Source: a virus. Taken from it: a DNA stretch of 31,485 nucleotides. Of this stretch, positions 5,761-27,544 are shown in pieces; positions within the stretch are counted from its first letter, which is position 1; every line of letters starts with the position of its first letter. The stretch lies in the IMG/VR virus record IMGVR_UViG_3300042465_000945, positions 1 to 31,485 of that record, one strand, 5' to 3'. Made by a program: the position numbers and the translations under genes. Below the pieces are notes generated by a model, which saw only the letters and a program-made list of their open reading frames with translations, was not told where the DNA came from and did not search any database.

Positions 5761-6228
5761 TACTAATATATAGGGAAATAATGAATGTTTGCAAAATAGA
5801 ATTAGTGTCACCGATTTATCTAAATATGTAACAAAGTGATAGGTAATTCGGTAATAATACTACCCTAATAGCAAAAAATGTAAACTCTGCAAGTTTTGAT
5901 AGTGTTCACTAATTTTGGTTGTTCAAGTTTCGTGAACATAGCTAATAAATGAACAGTCCGTTATAATCGGACAAACCATAAAGTCAAGCTATTATTTTAC
6001 TTTATAAGTACTAAAGTAAAACTAAAACTTTACTATTTTACTTTACTCAATAGAGTGAGTAATTTTACTCAATCAATAAATATTCATATATCAATCAAAA
6101 TGAGCCGCAAATGATTGACAATAGGCTCAAAGATGATTGACAAATGCACATCATAAAGTGCAATTAATGACTCATATTGCCATCATTAGTGTCATATAAG
6201 ACACATTATGGTGCATATATATAACATA
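5761..6228. other. Long non-coding gap with clustered inverted and direct repeats
   Basis: About 470 bp without a credible gene, very AT-rich, between a strong terminator and the next leftward gene. Inverted repeats: GTTCAC/GTGAAC at 5904-5909 and 5932-5937; GTCCG/CGGAC at 5956-5960 and 5968-5972; TTACTCA/TGAGTAA at 6043-6049 and 6056-6062; TGCAC/GTGCA at 6145-6149 and 6158-6162; GTGTC/GACAC at 6189-6193 and 6200-6204. ATGATTGACAA is directly repeated at 6111-6121 and 6133-6143. It could hold a promoter, packaging site, replication origin or small RNA. No convincing TTTG/TAnnTTTG pair was seen on the minus strand. Confidence 0.7.
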
Positions 6229-6232
6229 AAAA

Positions 6233-6258
6233 CCCCCACCTAGAGAACTAGGCAGGGG
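6233..6258 (-). terminator. Rho-independent terminator after the tail-tube gene
   Basis: On the minus strand the RNA reads CCCCTGCCTAG, TTCT loop, CTAGGTGGGGG, then TTTTTATG. The stem is near-perfect with one internal mismatch, and the U-run follows at 6228-6232. It lies 25 bp after the stop of the 6283-6801 gene and closes the capsid/tail-tube transcript. Confidence 0.85.
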
Positions 6259-6282
6259 AACTAACTATGAAAAACTACAAAC

Positions 6283-6801
6283 CTAACCTGCGGTTGTTAG
6301 AGCAGCAGCTACTGTACTATTTACTTCAGCACACAAACTAGGTTCTGCACCTGTAAATGTTAAAGTATATCCGCTTCTATCTCCTTCAGCAGTACCTGTT
6401 GCGGCACTACCTGCGGTTAAATCTATTGCCCTTGTTTTACCTACATACCAAAACTTACCATTGTTGTCTTTAGCAACTGCGACAAGTCTATTCTGTGCCA
6501 ATAAAAGAATTTCATTTCTTGTATTTGCTTGTAACTTATTTAAAATTATTGTCAATTCAGGGGTAAAATATAAAGTACCATTTTGAACATTTGATGCTAC
6601 ATTCTCTGTCAGCATTGAAGTTCCTTTTGTTAATTCATATTTATAGAACCTCTTACCTGTTGCTTTTACTAAAGCGGTAATTACACCACTTACTTCGGTT
6701 GTAGAAGTTACATCTGAACTTGCAATAAAATAAACCTCCGTAATTCCACCTAAAGAATCACGACAATCTAGGGTATATCCCTGTGTTAATGCACACGCCA
6801 T
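6283..6801 (-). CDS. Putative major tail tube protein
   Basis: 172 residues, beta-rich, beginning MACALTQGYTLDCRDSLGGI, which I recognise from Bacteroidota siphophages, where it sits next to the capsid gene. NEILLLAQNRLVAVAKDNNGK and GYTLTFTGAEPSL (parts named) are typical tube-like strands. It would polymerise around the tape measure to form the tail tube. It follows the major capsid gene across a hairpin terminator and is itself followed by a strong terminator, which suits a very highly expressed gene. The tube assignment rests on family memory and position. Confidence 0.68.
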   Translation of the reverse strand: MACALTQGYTLDCRDSLGGITEVYFIASSDVTSTTEVSGVITALVKATGKRFYKYELTKGTSMLTENVASNVQNGTLYFTPELTIILNKLQANTRNEILLLAQNRLVAVAKDNNGKFWYVGKTRAIDLTAGSAATGTAEGDRSGYTLTFTGAEPSLCAEVNSTVAAALTTAG

Positions 6802-6822
6802 TTTTGTTTATTTTATTTTATT

Positions 6823-6851
6823 AAAAAATGGGGGATATATTCCAATCCCCC
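6823..6851 (-). terminator. Hairpin terminator/attenuator between capsid and tail-tube genes
   Basis: The minus-strand RNA reads GGGGGAT, an 8-nt loop, ATCCCCC (arms at 6845-6851 and 6830-6836), then ATTTTTTAA. It lies just downstream of the capsid stop at 6858. The next start is at 6801, so it probably gives partial termination or protects the capsid mRNA 3' end. Confidence 0.8.
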
Positions 6852-6857
6852 TTATAA

Positions 6858-7808
6858 TTAAATTGCTACCTTAACGATTTCATCAGGGAATGCTACGTTT
6901 ACACCCATTTTGAACTCTGCTGCAAAACGAACTTCATCCGCTTCTTTAGCAAAAAAGATTTCAAACTTTTCTTCTTCGTTAAGTAAATCTGTACCTAAAA
7001 ACAAGTTGCTTAATCTCATTGCATAAACATCATTTGTTCCGTTTAAACCTTGTAAAGCTACTACTTTAATAGAAGTGCCCGGCAATACAAATTCAGCATC
7101 TGCTTTAACATCAATTGAATATTGGAACATATTAGCGTTCTTCAATGCAATAGTGTAAGTTCTAAAAGTATCTTGACCACAAACGATAACCATATCATCA
7201 GCAGCTACTACTTTAGCAGGGATTGCTTTGTAGATACCATCAAACAAGCTAACAACATTAGCTGAAGTGATAGAACTCAAAGGAGCACCTGAAATAAATC
7301 CTGATACATTCGCATCTACTACACCACTTGCAGCACCGATTAATTTGATGAAGCCATCAAACTTATTTAAGTTACCATTAGCAGAAGCAGTATCACCTTG
7401 CCATAAAGCAGTCTCTAATTGAGAAGCAATTGTTTTAGCTTTTCTATCAGAATAATCTTGCTCAAAAGGAATTGAATCATATTGACTTCCTGTTGGTAAA
7501 GCCTTTTGTAAGTATTTAGCTTCTAATGCTTTTGGACATAAAGCCTCTTGTACTTTAATCTTACCTACAGTTACAGTTCTTTGAGTGAAAGAAGTTGTAC
7601 CTGATGCATTCCATCCGCAAGTACCACCTGCTTGAAAGAAAGCATCTGTATCCATAATGTTGATAGTCTCTGCTGATTTAACACCGACCATAACATTACC
7701 TGCACTTTTAATAAGGGCAGCAGTTTTTGCACCTAATACAGATGAAGTCACTAATTGTGCTTCGTTTTCTTTTGTATAGTTGCTTAATGTACTAATTGAA
7801 AATGACAT
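6858..7808 (-). CDS. Major capsid protein (HK97-fold type)
   Basis: 316 residues with no transmembrane segments. It follows a protease and a scaffold gene, the standard capsid-assembly trio. Motifs include QRTVTVGKIKVQEALCPKAL near residue 76 and DMVIVCGQDTFRTY near residue 204. The C-terminus (EVRFAAEFKMGVNVAFPDEIVKV, named by its ends) matches the end of many HK97-fold shells, with a late beta sheet around a 'GVNVAFPDEI' strand. It forms the icosahedral shell. Start at 7808 follows an A-rich stretch, and a terminator follows the stop. Confidence 0.85.
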   Translation of the reverse strand: MSFSISTLSNYTKENEAQLVTSSVLGAKTAALIKSAGNVMVGVKSAETINIMDTDAFFQAGGTCGWNASGTTSFTQRTVTVGKIKVQEALCPKALEAKYLQKALPTGSQYDSIPFEQDYSDRKAKTIASQLETALWQGDTASANGNLNKFDGFIKLIGAASGVVDANVSGFISGAPLSSITSANVVSLFDGIYKAIPAKVVAADDMVIVCGQDTFRTYTIALKNANMFQYSIDVKADAEFVLPGTSIKVVALQGLNGTNDVYAMRLSNLFLGTDLLNEEEKFEIFFAKEADEVRFAAEFKMGVNVAFPDEIVKVAI

Positions 7809-7819
7809 TTTTTATAAAT

Positions 7820-8425
7820 TTATTTGTTTAAAATTGCGTTTCTATATTTCTCTAATCTCTCATATTTAGTATCATTTGTAGATACGTATGATTGAAAAGC
7901 GTTTGCTGCTTTTTGAGTTGGTTCAGCAGTTGGAGTGTTTGAAAGTGCTTCTACTAATTCAGCTACTTGTGCAAACCCTTGTTTTACTTTGCTCTCTAAT
8001 TCAGCAATTTTTGTTTCTAATTGACTTTTTTGCTCTGCAAAATCTGCTTTTAATTCAGCTACCATTGCAGTAGTGTCTTCTGCAGGTGCAACAGGTGCAG
8101 CAGGTGCAACAGGTTCTTCTTCTACAATATCTTCTTTAGGAGAAGCTATTTCAATGATTGTTCCTGTTTCATCTACTTGGATAGAAGTACCATCCATTAA
8201 TTGATGTTCGCCTTGTGGTGCAGGAGTGCCATCAGCCATCTCTACTTTGCCACCGATTTTTAATTCAGAAATCATAATCTTCGTTCCATCAGCCAAAGAA
8301 TATTCAGCCATTTCTACCTTTGTAACTGCAGGTTCTGCAGGTGCAATAGGTTCTTGTGGCTCAATTACTTGTGGCATATCTTCAAATAAGGCTCTTATTT
8401 GTTGCAATGCTTCTTTTGGGTTCAT
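7820..8425 (-). CDS. Head scaffolding / capsid assembly protein
   Basis: 201 residues, acidic and Ala/Pro/Glu-rich. Residues 40-95 hold repeated 'DGTxIxI' beta segments (SLADGTKIMIS, EMADGTPAPQGEH, LMDGTSIQVDE). About residues 120-165 form a coiled coil (LKADFAEQKSQLETKIAELE). The C-terminus is basic (YERLEKYRNAILNK), as is usual for scaffolds that contact the capsid. It sits between the protease and the capsid gene. It would guide procapsid assembly and be degraded during maturation. Call based on architecture plus position. Confidence 0.75.
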   Translation of the reverse strand: MNPKEALQQIRALFEDMPQVIEPQEPIAPAEPAVTKVEMAEYSLADGTKIMISELKIGGKVEMADGTPAPQGEHQLMDGTSIQVDETGTIIEIASPKEDIVEEEPVAPAAPVAPAEDTTAMVAELKADFAEQKSQLETKIAELESKVKQGFAQVAELVEALSNTPTAEPTQKAANAFQSYVSTNDTKYERLEKYRNAILNK

Positions 8426-10891: not shown

Positions 10892-12960
10892 TAGTATGTT
10901 GTTTCAATTACTTTTAATAAACTTATTTTAGTGGTATTGTATTCCATAGGATTAAATCCATCAACTTTATTTAACCTGAATAATACACCATCTATCCAAA
11001 TGTATTTGCTAAAGTCTAAATTCAATATATCAATAGTATTAAGTAAAGCAGAACAAGTTAATAGTTTACTATTCTTGTCTGTTATCTCTGCTATGTAATC
11101 ACTATGATATGCGTTAAATAGATTTGTTGTTGGGTATGTTGTAGGGGTAAATGATAACTCTTTAGGTACTCCAAAGTTAATATCATTAGCAGGAGTAGTA
11201 GGGTCATCTAAATGCCCTGCATAACCATAAGCAGTAGGACTACTTAATACAGTTCCTAGATTCATAATATTCCAACTTGTTACTCCTGTTATCTTTTTAA
11301 CTTGCATAATTCTTATAACACTATCCATTGTATCTTCTGTAGTATTATTATTAGATTTCTTATATATAGCAGCATATATTTTATCAGTTCCTGTTTGTTG
11401 AAATAAAACACTAGGTGCAAATATTATCTCTGTTGTTTCAGTATTTTTACTAAAGTCAAACTCTGTGTCATAAATCCTATCTGCGTATCCTTGACTATAT
11501 TTCTTTGAATAGTTTTCGTTATAAAAATCGTTATCTGTTTTATACTTATATTGATAATACCTTGCATTAAGTTCACTCATTGGCTTTATACTTAATGGCT
11601 TTGACCTATCTATTTTATTAGACCAATCCTCTGCGTTATCACTAACTGAAGGATAAAAATTTATATAAGGTTTTATAATTATCTTTTTATCATTCCACTT
11701 ATCATCATAAACATATAGGTTAAACATCTTACATATACTCAAAAAGAAATCTCTTTGGAATATACCTTTAGGAATAACATTATTAATTTTAATATTTTCT
11801 CCATAATTAATAGGTACTATTTCTACTGAAGTAGTTGTCATATTAAATCCTGAAGAACTTAAACTATTAAACTCATAAGGCTGACTGCCTAATGACCAAG
11901 TAATATGTACTTGAAAATAATCATTAGTATTAATTGTTACCCCTGTTAAATTAAAGTTTACTTGGAAAAAATTACCACTAAATCCTGTACCCATATTATA
12001 AGAAGCAATAGCAGTTCCATTCTTCTTTAAAGACATTGTAGCATTTTGACCTATTGCCCACTCTGCGTTTACATTAAAATCTATATTAACTACCTTTGAA
12101 GTAGCACCTGTAAAAGTAAATTTAGTATTGCTTTCTGTTAAAGTAAAATTACCTAATGTAAATGTTCCAAATTGCAAATATAATTCAACTGCAGTTCCAC
12201 TATATGTTTGGTCTATTGGGTATGCTTTTAATTGAACATTACTTGAACTAGATAAAATCTTTTGATTATGTGGTACTATAAGTCTATTATATAATTCTAA
12301 ATCACCTGCTTCTAAATCTAAAGTATATGTATAATCAGTTCCTGCAAACATTTTATCTATGTATTCAGCTACAAATAAAGCAGGTCTAAATGTGCTTACT
12401 TGGAAATCCTTTTTTAAAACACCATAAGTTCCTGTGCTTACATTGCCAAAGTCAATTAATGGGTAATAATATCCTGTACCTGTTATGCTATTCCAACTGC
12501 TTGTAATATTTGAAACATTATAAGTATGGTCGTATGCACTAAAATCTAAATCCTCTATTCTTGAATTTCCTAATGCAGTTATAAATCCGCCTAACTCACC
12601 AAACACAGAACATTGATATTCTATTGTTTTATTATCTACAACTATCTCAAGTATTCTTAATGTACCCTTAAATATTTGCACCTTGTCAATAAATATCTTG
12701 CATTGTGCTGCTTTACTAGCATTGAAGTTATAGTTTACATTAGGCAAAGTATTATCAAAGAAGTTAGCATTACCCAAGTCAAATACAAAGCCAAAGATTT
12801 GGTTATTTATAGCAGTACCTGATAATGATATTGTTTTACTAAAGGAAGTATTTTTACTACCAAAGTCTGTAATATCATCAATGGCATAAGTAAACTCTGT
12901 ACTTATATCTTGCAATAAATCTAGTTTATAATCTTCTACATATATCTCTGTACTAATCAT
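10891..12960 (-). CDS. Tail tip / baseplate protein (hub-like), conserved in Bacteroidota phages
   Basis: 689 residues, beta-rich and Asn/Thr/Tyr-rich. It begins MISTEIYVEDYKLDLLQDIS and includes a FTYAIDDITDFGSKNTSFSK segment, which I recognise as a conserved Bacteroidota phage tail protein. Middle repeats such as FTLTESNTKFTFTG look like beta-sandwich domains. It lies between another tail-tip-like gene and the tape measure, so a baseplate hub or tail-associated role is inferred. No lytic enzyme motif is seen. It overlaps both neighbours by 1 bp, suggesting translational coupling. Confidence 0.62.
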   Translation of the reverse strand: MISTEIYVEDYKLDLLQDISTEFTYAIDDITDFGSKNTSFSKTISLSGTAINNQIFGFVFDLGNANFFDNTLPNVNYNFNASKAAQCKIFIDKVQIFKGTLRILEIVVDNKTIEYQCSVFGELGGFITALGNSRIEDLDFSAYDHTYNVSNITSSWNSITGTGYYYPLIDFGNVSTGTYGVLKKDFQVSTFRPALFVAEYIDKMFAGTDYTYTLDLEAGDLELYNRLIVPHNQKILSSSSNVQLKAYPIDQTYSGTAVELYLQFGTFTLGNFTLTESNTKFTFTGATSKVVNIDFNVNAEWAIGQNATMSLKKNGTAIASYNMGTGFSGNFFQVNFNLTGVTINTNDYFQVHITWSLGSQPYEFNSLSSSGFNMTTTSVEIVPINYGENIKINNVIPKGIFQRDFFLSICKMFNLYVYDDKWNDKKIIIKPYINFYPSVSDNAEDWSNKIDRSKPLSIKPMSELNARYYQYKYKTDNDFYNENYSKKYSQGYADRIYDTEFDFSKNTETTEIIFAPSVLFQQTGTDKIYAAIYKKSNNNTTEDTMDSVIRIMQVKKITGVTSWNIMNLGTVLSSPTAYGYAGHLDDPTTPANDINFGVPKELSFTPTTYPTTNLFNAYHSDYIAEITDKNSKLLTCSALLNTIDILNLDFSKYIWIDGVLFRLNKVDGFNPMEYNTTKISLLKVIETTY

Positions 12961-15791: not shown

Positions 15792-15908
15792 TTAATCCAT
15801 CCATTTACCGTGCTTTCTTAAATGCCAAAATCTGTGCTTTAATACTTCAACAATAATACCCCATAAGGTATCTGCTTCATAAGTTCCTTCATTTACTATT
15901 AGTTTCAT
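15792..15908 (-). CDS. Hypothetical microprotein, 38 residues
   Basis: ATG at 15908 overlaps the upstream stop by 4 bp (ATGA). The product starts MKLIVNEGTYEADTLWGII and ends in a basic, aromatic tail (HRFWHLRKHGKWMD). No known domain. The 4-bp coupling with the preceding gene supports translation. Confidence 0.6.
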   Translation of the reverse strand: MKLIVNEGTYEADTLWGIIVEVLKHRFWHLRKHGKWMD

Positions 15909-16084
15909 ATATTATTTATTTTAGCTATTAAAGTTAATTCTTTTTGATATTCTAAATATTCTTCAAGTGCTTTAATTTGTAAATCCTTTATTGATATTTG
16001 AATTTCTTGTTTCTTAATGCGTTCAAGTAGTGTTTCTATTTCCATCCTGTCTAATAGACTTTGTTTTAATTCGTATGGCTTCAT
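15905..16084 (-). CDS. Hypothetical coiled-coil microprotein, 59 residues
   Basis: ATG at 16084, preceded by ATAACT. Nearly the whole product is one charged helix with heptad-like Leu/Ile spacing (LLERIKKQEIQISIKDLQI). Its stop overlaps the next start by 4 bp. No family recognised; likely a small adaptor or regulator of unknown target. Confidence 0.62.
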   Translation of the reverse strand: MKPYELKQSLLDRMEIETLLERIKKQEIQISIKDLQIKALEEYLEYQKELTLIAKINNI

Positions 16085-16093
16085 AGTTATATA

Positions 16094-16318
16094 TTAGTCA
16101 TTAGAAATATAATTCATAAAATAATATTCACTAGATTCTCCCTGCATTGTTTTGCCATATCTGAAAGCATTTTCAATTTCCTTTCTTTCATTATTAAGTA
16201 ACTCTTTGGCTAATCTTTGTGCTTCCATTAAACCATAGAACTTAATGCCACCTAATGATGTTTTCTTAATCTCTTTTTCTAATGTTTCAATTAGAATTGT
16301 TAATGTTGTTTTTTTCAT
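16094..16318 (-). CDS. Conserved small phage protein, 74 residues (paralogue of 25552-25791)
   Basis: Starts MKKTTLTILIETLEKEIKK; the second half contains LNNERKEIENAFRYGK and ends ..YYFMNYISND. The same plan (LE/NE-x-RxEIxxAFxxG ... E-x-Y-F-x-x-x-Y) is seen in the product of 25552-25791. Proteins of this type are common in Bacteroidota phages, where I know no function. Start chosen at ATG 16318 after AAACAA. Confidence 0.68.
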   Translation of the reverse strand: MKKTTLTILIETLEKEIKKTSLGGIKFYGLMEAQRLAKELLNNERKEIENAFRYGKTMQGESSEYYFMNYISND

Positions 16319-16495: not shown

Positions 16496-16669
16496 TTATT
16501 TTATTCTATATAAAGAAGGATATTTTTCAAAAGTCTTTTTGGCTATTCTAGTAAATCCTGAACCTTTGAACCATACAAAAGAATCTGATATTTTATATAT
16601 TACTGATTCTATCCAAATGCCATTAGCAATTTTATATTCAATGATAGTTCCTGTTGTTAGATGTTTCAT
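16496..16669 (-). CDS. Hypothetical small protein, 57 residues
   Basis: ATG at 16669 gives MKHLTTGTIIEYKIANGIWI and a short SH3-like beta pattern ending YPSLYRIK. A longer GTG start at 16696 would run through a hairpin and adds unlikely residues, so the ATG is preferred. Function unknown. Confidence 0.58.
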   Translation of the reverse strand: MKHLTTGTIIEYKIANGIWIESVIYKISDSFVWFKGSGFTRIAKKTFEKYPSLYRIK

Positions 16670-16677
16670 AATAAAAT

Positions 16678-16696
16678 GTGCGTTGTTCAGCCGCAC
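16678..16696 (-). repeat. GTGCG/CGCAC hairpin, copy 1
   Basis: GTGCG (16678-16682) and CGCAC (16692-16696) with a 9-nt loop. The minus-strand reading GGGGTGCGGCTGAACAACGC is nearly the same as a plus-strand copy at 27556-27577. It lies between two small genes. Confidence 0.55.
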
Positions 16697-16708: not shown

Positions 16709-16909
16709 TTAGTAATTATTTTGAACAAAATCTAAAAGATTAATATAATATTCAGTTTTTTCTTTTACAAATATTTCACTTTCACCACTTGTAAAAGTTC
16801 CGCCCATAGGAGTTATTTTAATTGTTACGTATTCAGATACATTGTAAAGTTGTGTAAATAAACAACCGTTGTGTACTACTTCTGTTGTTGTAATTTGATA
16901 AGTTTTCAT
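16709..16909 (-). CDS. Hypothetical small protein, 66 residues, first gene of the second promoter
   Basis: Starts MKTYQITTTEVVHNGCLFTQ; all-beta look with a C-terminal helix (YYINLLDFVQNNY). ATG at 16909 is 31 nt below a good promoter and follows an A-rich leader ending ACACTATG. No family recognised. It opens the microprotein run that leads into tail assembly genes. Confidence 0.62.
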   Translation of the reverse strand: MKTYQITTTEVVHNGCLFTQLYNVSEYVTIKITPMGGTFTSGESEIFVKEKTEYYINLLDFVQNNY

Positions 16910-16940: not shown

Positions 16941-16973
16941 CAAAGATAGTATAAGATATATACCACTTCCAAA
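16941..16973 (-). promoter_or_regulatory. Bacteroidota-type promoter (late/middle operon)
   Basis: Minus strand: TTTG (16970-16973), 21-nt spacer, TATCTTTG (16941-16948), matching the TTTG/TAnnTTTG consensus. The downstream gene starts at 16909. A repeated CGGTAAAT element lies exactly 34 bp upstream of the TTTG box. Confidence 0.72.
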
Positions 16974-17007
16974 CATTTTCTAAACTATTTTTAAACTTTG
17001 TGATGAA

Positions 17008-17035
17008 CGGTAAATATCAAGGATAAGCGGTAAAT
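17008..17035 (-). repeat. Paired CGGTAAAT element upstream of the 16.95 kb promoter
   Basis: CGGTAAAT (plus-strand reading) at 17008-17015 and again at 17028-17035, 20 bp apart. The sequence CGGTAAATATCA at 17008-17019 recurs exactly at 27011-27022, and AAGGATAAGCGGTAAAT at 17019-17035 recurs inverted at 27100-27116. The spacing suggests a protein binding on one face of the helix. Confidence 0.7.
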
Positions 17036-21969: not shown

Positions 21970-22199
21970 ATCTTATACATTAATGTTTCTATGATTGCAC
22001 CTAGATAACCTGATATAAATAATACACTTGCTATATCTAAAACTAATTTAGGTGAGAAATATAATACGACCCCAACCCACGCAGCCAAACAACTTCCGCA
22101 ACTGAAAGGCTTGAAGTTGATATGCCATTTACGGTGTAGGTTGTGTATAGAATTAAAAAATAATGATGCACAGACACTTGTTATAATTATTTGAATCAT
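21960..22199 (-). CDS. Small membrane protein with FxCGxCLxxWxG motif (DUF1360-like)
   Basis: 79 residues with an N-terminal hydrophobic helix, a central KPFSCGSCLAAWVGVVLYF and a last hydrophobic segment (ASVLFISGYLGAIIETL). The C-x2-C-L-x2-W-x-G pattern resembles DUF1360 membrane proteins. Likely in the inner membrane. Overlaps the sigma-like gene by 4 bp. Could support the adjacent glycan genes. Confidence 0.6.
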   Translation of the reverse strand: MIQIIITSVCASLFFNSIHNLHRKWHINFKPFSCGSCLAAWVGVVLYFSPKLVLDIASVLFISGYLGAIIETLMYKIWN

Positions 22200-22678
22200 T
22201 TACGAATATGTTTTTTTAGTTCGTTTTTAGTTTGTTTTAAAGTTCTTATGATTGACATATATGGTATTCCTGTCTTTCTGCTTAACTCTTTTGCGTTTTT
22301 ATTAAACTCAAATGTATATAAGTTTAATATTTCTTTTTGATACCAATGCAGTTTTTCAATGCCCTTTTCCATTATATCTAATACACTATTCTGTTCAACC
22401 TCTGCTTTTTCATTATCCTCATATTCAGTATAGTTCCTGTACTTTTTCCAAAATTGACTTCTGTCTGACTTAATCATATTAAGCATAGTTCTTACTATGT
22501 AAAATCTAATCTCACCTCTTTCATATAAGCCAAATAACTTTTCATTATCCATTTCTAACAATACCATAAACACTTCAACCTTCAAATCATATTGCAATTC
22601 TTCAGGCTGCATCTTTGCAAATGCCTGATTTACTTCATCATTAAGCCAATATTGCTCTATAATTTTATTTTTCTCCAT
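22196..22678 (-). CDS. Sigma-70-like (ECF-type) transcription factor
   Basis: 160 residues. A region-2-like block (EELQYDLKVEVFMVLLEMDN, then IRFYIVRTMLNMIKSDRSQF) and a region-4-like helix-turn-helix (YQKEILNLYTFEFNKNAKEL, then KTGIPYMSIIRTLKQTKNEL). The two-block plan is like small ECF sigma factors and is often seen in Bacteroidota phages. It could redirect host RNA polymerase to phage promoters, possibly those with the CGGTAAAT elements. Overlaps the next gene by 4 bp and the VRR-NUC gene by 22 bp. Confidence 0.72.
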   Translation of the reverse strand: MEKNKIIEQYWLNDEVNQAFAKMQPEELQYDLKVEVFMVLLEMDNEKLFGLYERGEIRFYIVRTMLNMIKSDRSQFWKKYRNYTEYEDNEKAEVEQNSVLDIMEKGIEKLHWYQKEILNLYTFEFNKNAKELSRKTGIPYMSIIRTLKQTKNELKKHIRK

Positions 22679-25793: not shown

Positions 25794-26339
25794 TTATTTG
25801 TTTTGATTTTCGTTAATTGATTTTAAAGCCTTATTATATTGCTCTATAGATGTTAAAGCACTAATTTTAATAGCTATCTTTTGTTTCATCTTTTCATCCC
25901 AAGTAGTGTTTTCAAGCATTAAGATTAACTCCATTCTTTTCTGCTCACCTATTTCATCCTTATGCTCATTAGTTGCATCACTATCTTTAGTGTCATCAAT
26001 AGCAAATAAACCATTGAGTGCATACTTCCTAGCATAGCTTGATGCACTACCTGTTATCTGTGCTGCATCCATTCCCTTTTTAACTTCTTCTTCTCGTGCC
26101 CAACCATTAACAGAAATATGGTTGTCTGTGTTATCTAATAGTGTTGCAGTAGCTTTAATGTAGATTCTTTCACCTACCTGTACTACTTCATCACTAATTA
26201 CTAATGCAGTTCCATATTTGTTTAGTATGGGTTTGACTGCTTCAATGATGTCCTCTGCACTTCGGTATTTGTATTTACCAAAAGCATTGGTTTGATTTTT
26301 TGGTGCTCTTAATTCTGCCTGAATTTTTACTAGGTTCAT
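25794..26339 (-). CDS. erf: Single-strand annealing protein, Erf family
   Basis: 181 residues. FGKYKYRSAEDIIEAVKPIL near residue 20 and GSASSYARKYALNGLFAIDD (97-116) are the Erf core. It anneals complementary single strands and supports phage recombination and concatemer formation. A C-terminal helical region (TTWDEKMKQKIAIKI) follows. Lies in the leftward early operon with nuclease genes. Confidence 0.88.
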   Translation of the reverse strand: MNLVKIQAELRAPKNQTNAFGKYKYRSAEDIIEAVKPILNKYGTALVISDEVVQVGERIYIKATATLLDNTDNHISVNGWAREEEVKKGMDAAQITGSASSYARKYALNGLFAIDDTKDSDATNEHKDEIGEQKRMELILMLENTTWDEKMKQKIAIKISALTSIEQYNKALKSINENQNK

Positions 26340-26357: not shown

Positions 26358-26609
26358 TTAATAATTTTCGTATTCTTCAAATATTTCTGTCTTATCTGCT
26401 AATCTTATATAATCTTTTGTTTCCTGTATTGGTTTGGCAGTTGGATATGTTACCCTGTAATAATCACCAAATTGTTTTCTTGCTTCTTGATACTTTTTAT
26501 AGTATTCAGCATTATGAAATTGGTAGCAGCTTTCATACTTCCATCTCCAATAATCAAGGTTAAATCCTAATTGATTTAATTTTTCATCAGGTGTAGGTGC
26601 GTGTCTCAT
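26358..26609 (-). CDS. Hypothetical small protein, Tyr-rich
   Basis: 83 residues. MRHAPTPDEKLNQLGFNLDY, then a helical, Tyr-rich middle (AEYYKKYQEARKQFGDYYRV). No domain recognised. Spaced 1 bp from the upstream gene and 18 bp from erf; early operon. Confidence 0.6.
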   Translation of the reverse strand: MRHAPTPDEKLNQLGFNLDYWRWKYESCYQFHNAEYYKKYQEARKQFGDYYRVTYPTAKPIQETKDYIRLADKTEIFEEYENY

Positions 26610-26610
26610 T

Positions 26611-26805
26611 TTAAATTGTTTTAGTTTCTAAAATAGTTTTTACCGGTTCTAAAGTTCCTCCATTTGCTAAAATAATAAATTTTTCATAGGCAATATCTTT
26701 ATCGTGACTGCCTGATTCACTAACAAAAAAGGAATCAATAGTAGTATAATACCATATACTTGTTGAGTTCCATTTAGTTTCTTCTACAAATTGAATTTTT
26801 TTCAT
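26611..26805 (-). CDS. Hypothetical small protein
   Basis: 64 residues, MKKIQFVEETKWNSTSIWYY, with a SGSHDKDIAYEKFIILANGG segment. A pattern I associate with Bacteroidota phage early regions; function unknown. ATG at 26805 follows AAACAAACT. Confidence 0.62.
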   Translation of the reverse strand: MKKIQFVEETKWNSTSIWYYTTIDSFFVSESGSHDKDIAYEKFIILANGGTLEPVKTILETKTI

Positions 26806-26819
26806 AGTTTGTTTTTTGA

Positions 26820-26921
26820 TTAATTAATTAATGCGTGTTTAAATTTTGTAATCATAGCATTAAATGCTTTGTTAGTTTTTTTGATTTCTAATTTTTCTTC
26901 TTTTGTTAGTTTTTGTTTCAT
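26820..26921 (-). CDS. Microprotein, 33 residues, first gene of the early operon
   Basis: ATG at 26921, 23 nt below a good promoter. MKQKLTKEEKLEIKKTNKAF and a basic helical end (ITKFKHALIN). Short and very Lys-rich; could bind nucleic acid. The leader (AAACACAAAAACTATG) is shared in style with the gene at 16909. Confidence 0.6.
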   Translation of the reverse strand: MKQKLTKEEKLEIKKTNKAFNAMITKFKHALIN

Positions 26922-26944: not shown

Positions 26945-26976
26945 CAAATCTACAGGCTTTAAACATACTATCCAAA
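26945..26976 (-). promoter_or_regulatory. Bacteroidota-type promoter of the leftward early operon
   Basis: Minus strand: TTTG (26973-26976), 20-nt spacer, TAGATTTGC with core TAGATTTG (26945-26952). The first downstream ATG is 26921. A CGGTAAAT element begins exactly 34 bp upstream of the TTTG box, as at 16.95 kb. Confidence 0.78.
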
Positions 26977-27010
26977 TATTATACCCACTATTTTACATAA
27001 ATATTATGAG

Positions 27011-27038
27011 CGGTAAATATCAGGGATGAATGGTAATT
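27011..27038 (-). repeat. Paired (C/T)GGTAAAT-like element upstream of the 26.95 kb promoter
   Basis: CGGTAAAT at 27011-27018 and the variant TGGTAATT at 27031-27038, 20 bp apart. CGGTAAATATCA (27011-27022) and the inner GGAT (27024-27027) match the element at 17008-17035. Confidence 0.7.
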
Positions 27039-27044
27039 ATCCTA

Positions 27045-27100
27045 TATTTTGTCCGATATTTTGTCCGGACAGAAAACCGGACATACTAAAAAATTTAGTA
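27045..27100. promoter_or_regulatory. Probable operator cluster in the divergent region
   Basis: TATTTTGTCCG is directly repeated at 27045-27055 and 27057-27067 with a 12-bp period. TGTCCGG/CCGGACA form a 7-bp inverted repeat (27062-27068, 27077-27083). TACTAAA/TTTAGTA form another (27084-27090, 27094-27100). They lie between the leftward promoter and the rightward gene. The GTCCG/CGGAC core also occurs at 5956-5972. Confidence 0.6.
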
Positions 27101-27126
27101 TTTACCGCTTATCCTTTTATATTACC
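27100..27126 (+). repeat. Third paired element, inverted, facing the rightward gene
   Basis: ATTTACCGCTTATCCTT (27100-27116) is the exact reverse complement of 17019-17035, and ATATTACC (27119-27126) is the diverged partner 20 bp on. Together with the 27011-27038 element it makes a large inverted arrangement; TATTTACCGCT at 27099-27109 pairs with AGCGGTAAATA at 27009-27019. Confidence 0.65.
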
Positions 27127-27253
27127 ATTTGTGTAATAAATTTGGATATGTCGTTTATAAGTTGTATATTGTTTTATAATTAAGAAATTAATTATGCTCT
27201 TTGAAACATTAACCAAAAACAAGTGAGACACACTTAAAACTGTAAAACCAATT

Positions 27254-27544
27254 ATGATAAGTAAAACTATCAAAAATGAAATCAAGGTAATTATGAAACA
27301 ATTACCTAAAATGGGTTGGGATGACCCTGATTATTTTATAACTTATGAATTAATGATTTACACCAACAAAGAAAATAATGATTGGGATTTAGATGACTTT
27401 AGCCACTTTAAAGATTTAAGAGATTTGGATAAAGTAATTAAAAGAATTATTAATAACTATGGTGAAAGACTTAATCATATAGATTTTAAATGGTCTGAAG
27501 AAGAAGGTGATTTTGACCAAATGACAATTTATACTAGAGTATAA
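27254..27544 (+). CDS. Hypothetical protein, the only rightward gene
   Basis: 96 residues, acidic, MISKTIKNEIKVIMKQLPKM then MGWDDPDYFITYELMIYTNK and a last DFKWSEEEGDFDQMTIYTRV (parts shown). No helix-turn-helix or enzyme motif seen. Its opposite orientation from the switch region suggests an immediate-early or lysogeny/anti-host role, but this is inference. Convergent with the HExxH gene; a GTGCG hairpin lies between them. Confidence 0.68.
   Translation: MISKTIKNEIKVIMKQLPKMGWDDPDYFITYELMIYTNKENNDWDLDDFSHFKDLRDLDKVIKRIINNYGERLNHIDFKWSEEEGDFDQMTIYTRV

Follow-up and report, generated by a model that had tools for sequence, protein, structure and literature searches.

The E. coli btsT promoter, with the sequence ACCGCTTAC-12-ACCACTCAG, is the target of the LytTR regulator BtsR, whose motif is ACC[GA]CT[CT]A. 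Regulators with a LytTR domain bind 9-bp direct repeats 10–13 bp apart, which in activators lie mostly upstream of the -35 box (PMC11347149), the repeats being bound as pairs or triplets (PMC11347149, PMC4847170) and conforming to no single consensus (PMC4847170). The repeats of the S. mutans BrsR operon read ACCACTTAT-12-ACCGCTTAT, and repeats of this type end 4–11 bp before the -35 box (PMC6193735). No paper on LytTR operators in phages was found in the open-access literature; the closest precedent for the arrangement described here comes from phages of Alphaproteobacteria that have captured CtrA, a response regulator of their hosts, and whose unrelated lineages bear high-scoring CtrA sites in their promoters (Mascolo et al. 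2022, PMC9437464).

The DNA analysed here, referred to as the window, is a 31,485-base record from the virus collection IMG/VR, carrying three tandem pairs of a 14-bp unit that reads WTTACCGYTYATCM in the sense of transcription and recurs at a period of 20 bp; sites A and B face leftward and site C rightward. Site A reads TTTACCGCTTATCC-ttgata-TTTACCGTTCATCA (17034 to 17001): its upstream unit, U1 (17021..17034, minus strand, core ACCGCTTAT), begins immediately past the stop codon of the terminase large subunit, and its promoter-proximal unit, U2 (17001..17014, minus strand, core ACCGTTCAT), lies exactly 20 bp from it. Site B reads ATTACCATTCATCC-ctgata-TTTACCGCTCATAA (27037 to 27004; U1 at 27024..27037 and U2 at 27004..27017, minus strand, 20 bp apart), and site C reads TTTACCGCTTATCC-ttttat-ATTACCATTTGTGT (27101–27134; U1 at 27101..27114 and U2 at 27121..27134, plus strand). 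Measured against a unit consensus partly shaped by the search patterns used, both units of sites A and B and U1 of site C match at 14/14 positions and U2 of site C at 12/14, with a degeneracy (TTGTGT) that recurs in relatives and in the phage record G017. The 9-bp cores of the pair, ACCGCTTAT and ACCGTTCAT, are separated by 11 bp. The tandem unit at the 20-bp period occurs three times in the window against 0.0067 expected from 300 dinucleotide shuffles, and CGGTAAAT six times against 0.40 expected by chance, counts that rule out a chance origin of the pairs.

The initial annotation had reported a paired element at two promoters with identical spacing, and all of its coordinates hold: CGGTAAAT stands 34 bp from the TTTG box at both promoters (at 17008 and 27011), with a second copy 20 bp further (starting at 17029 and 27032). 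The element it described is real, although it had been taken from the wrong strand and at too short a length, GGTAAAT being merely the complement of one end of the 14-bp unit, whose -YAT- half is kept in both copies; the two pairs are both present, but the third, at site C, had been missed.

Bacteroidota primary-sigma promoters combine a -7 box, TAnnTTTG, with a -33 box, TTTG, 19–21 bp upstream, and promoters A and B both fit this pattern exactly. Promoter A has its -33 TTTG at 16970..16973 and its -7 box, TATCTTTG, at 16941..16948 (minus strand, spacer 21), in a register of 66 from U2 that is conserved in relatives; promoter B has its -33 TTTG at 26973..26976 and its -7 box, TAGATTTG, at 26945..26952 (minus strand, spacer 20). 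On the plus strand, promoter C has a conserved -33 TTTG (27141..27144), 20 bp past the start of U2, and the -7 box TATATTGT (27165..27172). Mapped promoters of F. psychrophilum show a -7 consensus and a TAnnTTGY (SM5) variant of it (PMC9723704), and it is this variant that TATATTGT fits, both in the window and at the C sites of relatives. The first genes behind A and B both begin in an A-rich ACTATGAAA context. At site A, genes of 66, 66, 74 and 59 aa (16709..16909, 16496–16696, 16094–16318 and 15905–16084, minus strand) precede the structural genes, the first of them, an open reading frame without a family in the family search, being highly variable among relatives. Operon B opens with an open reading frame for a 33-aa microprotein (26820..26921, minus strand), followed on the same strand by 26611–26805, 26358–26609 and an ERF gene recognised by Pfam (25794–26339), and site C faces a plus-strand gene for a 96-aa protein of no family (27254..27544, with a second possible start at 27292). 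Between the divergent sites B and C, at 27045–27088, lies TTTTGTCCGATATTTTGTCCGGACAGAAAACCGGACA, a repeated and palindromic GTCCGGAC-type sequence that is perhaps a second operator or an origin; a similar sequence, 'ggacaaaatatcggaca', is found 5' of B-type sites in the relatives G002, G005, G008, G020, G062 and G071.

Distinct sequence contexts that hold the pair number about 180, and most of the relatives collected without the motif are among them. The pair is carried by hundreds of uncultured phages whose hosts are presumed to be Bacteroidota, an assignment based only on promoter type and on distant relatives (a Nonlabens phage). A scan of IMG/VR with one 16-bp unit yielded 82 stretches, and in most of them a second unit is present as well; among contigs fetched by this single-unit seed the spacing was exactly 20 bp in 47 of 59 pairs of good units, and in 20 of 29 once the seed-containing pairs had been dropped, every other spacing being represented by at most three pairs. 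Two later scans imposed the 20-bp period, and the period is claimed from the single-unit-seed contigs and the terminase relatives only. A first motif-blind set comprised the best 80 of at least 595 relatives of the window terminase, at an identity of at least 77%; the pair was found at 59 of these 80 loci (77 with usable downstream sequence), mostly within about 80 bases of the terminase stop, and the best pair always had the 20-bp period. Three pair-less loci end too early for a call, and the remaining ones keep the promoter at that place with other sequence upstream, which argues that the operator can be lost or swapped. Several pair-less relatives (L347, L349, L350, L351, L354, L355, L356, L359, L370 and L371, at about 2650–2800) share a conserved ATTGATTTCTAA...TTTTAACAT..TTTTAAG, possibly a swapped operator upstream of the same kind of promoter. 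Another set, likewise collected without the motif, started from the sigma-like protein discussed below, and at least one pair was present in 46 of its 54 loci. The record G030 has three units rather than two. The conservation of element and spacing in related phages, on which the initial annotation had staked its proposal beforehand, is therefore intact, and supports the view that the promoters are controlled in a coordinated way by a factor seated on a single face of the helix.

Offsets from U2 to the -7 box, taken over 38 context clusters, gather at 45, 53–55, 64–66 and 84–85 bp with a 10-bp periodicity (Rayleigh p about 1e-9), and this quantisation in 10-bp steps places the pair in phase with the DNA helix; in the window, sites A and B occupy the 64–66 register and site C the 44–45 register. 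The pair stands one to three DNA turns upstream of the promoters, with 8–9, 18 or 29 bp between the end of the core and the -33 box, and the proximal units start 20–41 bp before that box. The match to the -33 box is 3.56/4 in class 65 and 3.25/4 in class 55, and falls to the background level of 2.00/4 (control, 1.61) in class 45, a figure that leaves out the C-type sites, where TTTG is kept, because their -7 box differs. The phage promoters thus differ from Bacteroidota primary-sigma promoters in that the -33 box is dispensable where the pair stands closest. Class I and class II activation are well established, and placement on the same face as polymerase, together with a -33 box that can be dispensed with at close range, argues for an activator. 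We infer that the paired element is an upstream activator site on one DNA face, acting in activation rather than repression; the timing of its use during infection would be a matter of similar inference.

Several features place the pair close to the operators of LytTR regulators such as BtsR at E. coli btsT, BrsR and HdrR of S. mutans, YpdB, AgrA and ComE. In about 180 contexts direct repeats of about 9 bp are present in pairs, arranged head to tail about two helical turns apart (11 bp between cores, within the 10–13 bp range), and standing in phase upstream of the -35/-33 box, as in LytTR activators. The phage cores conform to ACC[GA][CT]T[CT]AT, 11 bp apart, and match those of BtsR and BrsR: ACCGCTTAT is identical to BrsR repeat 2, and the phage core matches ACCGCTTA, btsT site 1, at 8/8 positions. 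In class 45, ACCGCTTAT-11-ACCGTTCAT ends 8–9 bp before the -33 position. Because the family lacks a common consensus, likeness to known repeats is a weak test, and the 9-mer match counts as a lead and not a proof; taken over length, number, gap, place and letters, the fit to the LytTR class is a strong lead drawn from sequence. The phage element differs from the described operators in its 11-bp gap (period 20), near the lower limit of the LytTR range, in its conserved WTT- and -CM flanks, in serving several promoters per phage, in its Bacteroidota promoter type, and in a promoter distance that is variable yet helically phased, pairs A and B lying 29 bp core-to-box from -33 rather than about 10. 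It also stands in phages that have no LytTR protein of their own: a cognate protein in the same genome was found in 0 of 72 phage records. Such a protein is a feature of the regulator and not of the operator, and the binder is therefore sought in the host.

The search behind this figure, with the LytTR profile PF04397, gave no match in the 72 carrier records at E values up to 1 and was positive in 7 of 14 control genomes, Bacteroides ihuae among them; a phage-encoded LytTR activator was rejected on this ground. When the proteins of 20 diverse carrier records were clustered, no family turned out to be shared by all of them. G017 (49.7 kb) has in common with the window and its sampled relatives only a small HTH_39 winged-helix (wHTH) family, and G063, which bears the same element as G017 and the window, has nothing in common with the window clade. 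A constant site in unrelated phages is best explained by a factor outside the phage genome. These two carriers, and the match of the core to a bacterial operator class, also make it doubtful that the control is phage-specific, as had been supposed. We consider it probable, though well short of assured, that the element is an operator for an activator of the LytTR class and that a LytTR response regulator belonging to the Bacteroidota host is its most likely binder, the phages themselves encoding no LytTR domain. The operator would be of the AgrA/ComE/BtsR-like kind, with the 9-bp sequence ACCGYTYAT directly repeated across an 11-bp gap, and the activator would bind it as a head-to-tail dimer on one DNA face, upstream of Bacteroidota primary-sigma promoters and at a distance that steps by one helical turn. 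Host RNA polymerase, together with the host activator, would then transcribe the small phage accessory genes, with read-through into the operons behind them.

Against a host regulator stands the absence of a visible Bacteroidota regulon with the same perfect operator: no strict pair was seen in Bacteroidota among the 84,980 species genomes of bacteria and archaea that were scanned, and none of these genomes showed a host-wide regulon with the same strict operator. This absence is a caution rather than a refutation, since LytTR regulators with a specialised role often act on just one or two imperfect targets. The sole strict-pair match in the scan is in Fictibacillus arsenicus (L140 3736–3810), where four tandem TTTACCGTTTATAA-like units in steps of about 20 bp sit between the genes for a TerC-like membrane protein and a methyl-accepting chemotaxis protein; as evidence of a host regulon this array was set aside, and it was regarded as a chance occurrence or an unrelated site. 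A blastn search, weak for a query of 37–39 nt, found the element in no cultured phage or plasmid.

The same absence of the strict pair from sequenced Bacteroidota favours an activator encoded by the phages, either a small, unrecognised protein with no known domain or a set of proteins that differ from phage to phage, and the many small phage genes without a family would offer candidates. We nevertheless judge this unlikely, as no family spans every carrier and unrelated proteins would hardly converge on one 14-bp unit at one period.

The initial annotation had proposed a sigma-like, winged-helix or DnaA-IV protein of the phage as the binder, and none of the three keeps company with the element throughout. 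The HTH_39 winged-helix protein is missing from G013, G045, G051, G075, G083 and other carriers, and was rejected. The sigma-like protein (22196–22678, 160 aa, without a Pfam match) is the most widespread regulator-like protein among carriers: it is present in the window clade, in diverged form in G068, G075 and G081, and probably in further versions in G051, G058, G061, G064 and G083. Its predicted structure is of modest confidence (pLDDT 77, pTM 0.48), and Foldseek matches to it are all weak, the top ones nearly all sigma factors; a profile comparison relates it to gp33 of Nonlabens phage P12024S, annotated as sigma-70 region 2 (E 8e-6). The predicted fold and this weak similarity suggest an ECF-sigma-like protein. 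The Nonlabens phages P12024S/L (genus Inhavirus) resemble the window in a distant portal homologue (24.5%), in ERF and in the VRR-NUC gene that adjoins the sigma-like gene in the window and gp33 in P12024S, but they lack the paired element. In another reading the sigma-like protein, which has ECF-like regions 2 and 4, or else a partner protein, would recognise the repeats and drive transcription of the middle or late phase; this would agree with the wide co-occurrence of the sigma-like protein and with the first rank of sigma factors among its structural matches, and yet appears improbable. The sigma-like protein is absent from the carrier G045, where its neighbours, VRR-NUC and a small membrane protein, adjoin, and it was not found in the carriers G017, G063 and G073; the P12024S homologue occurs without the element. 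Its recognition helices differ strongly among carriers while the element is constant, and identical C-termini occur at loci with and without the pair.

That the repeats are repressor sites or replication iterons for DnaA-IV is very unlikely: sites B and C do lie together between divergent genes, a DnaA domain-IV protein is encoded by the phage and unit 1 contains TTATCC, part of the DnaA box, but the proximal units, 20–41 bp before -33 and phased to the promoter, would mostly not block polymerase, one to four separate promoters per genome bear sites, site A lies directly past the terminase, and DnaA-IV, confined to the window, G001-like and G013 clades, is missing from seven carriers (G017, G045, G051, G058, G064, G075 and G083).

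The genes behind the element are small and diverse. The first downstream genes of about 100 sites on the retrieved contigs fall into 58 families, nearly all of about 40–110 aa and without known domains, the few recognisable ones including ERF in G045, G068 and G075; the element is thus a marker of islands in which small genes change fast. It provides a searchable regulatory signature for a large group of uncultured phages, and the co-regulated small genes that it flags make a short list for functions in counter-defence and in takeover of the host. Should the activator be a LytTR regulator of the host, these phages would read a host signalling pathway. It is possible, if rather doubtful, that several unrelated Bacteroidota phage lineages have tied their accessory-gene islands to one and the same host LytTR two-component regulator; a host signal would then set the expression of fast-evolving small phage genes, and this would be a second capture of a host regulator besides CtrA, in another phylum and with another regulator class. 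The CtrA-controlled phages are alike in that the promoters of unrelated lineages carry sites for a response regulator of the host; they differ in regulator class, in host phylum and in that CtrA binding has been demonstrated, whereas the present comparison is one of sequence alone. Small proteins of two kinds, 'MTPKDKAKQL...' and '...EKEQTEHAFNES...', turn up repeatedly in Bacteroidota phages that otherwise differ, and are located in G045 and in L256 at 6181–8168 and 12601–12843.
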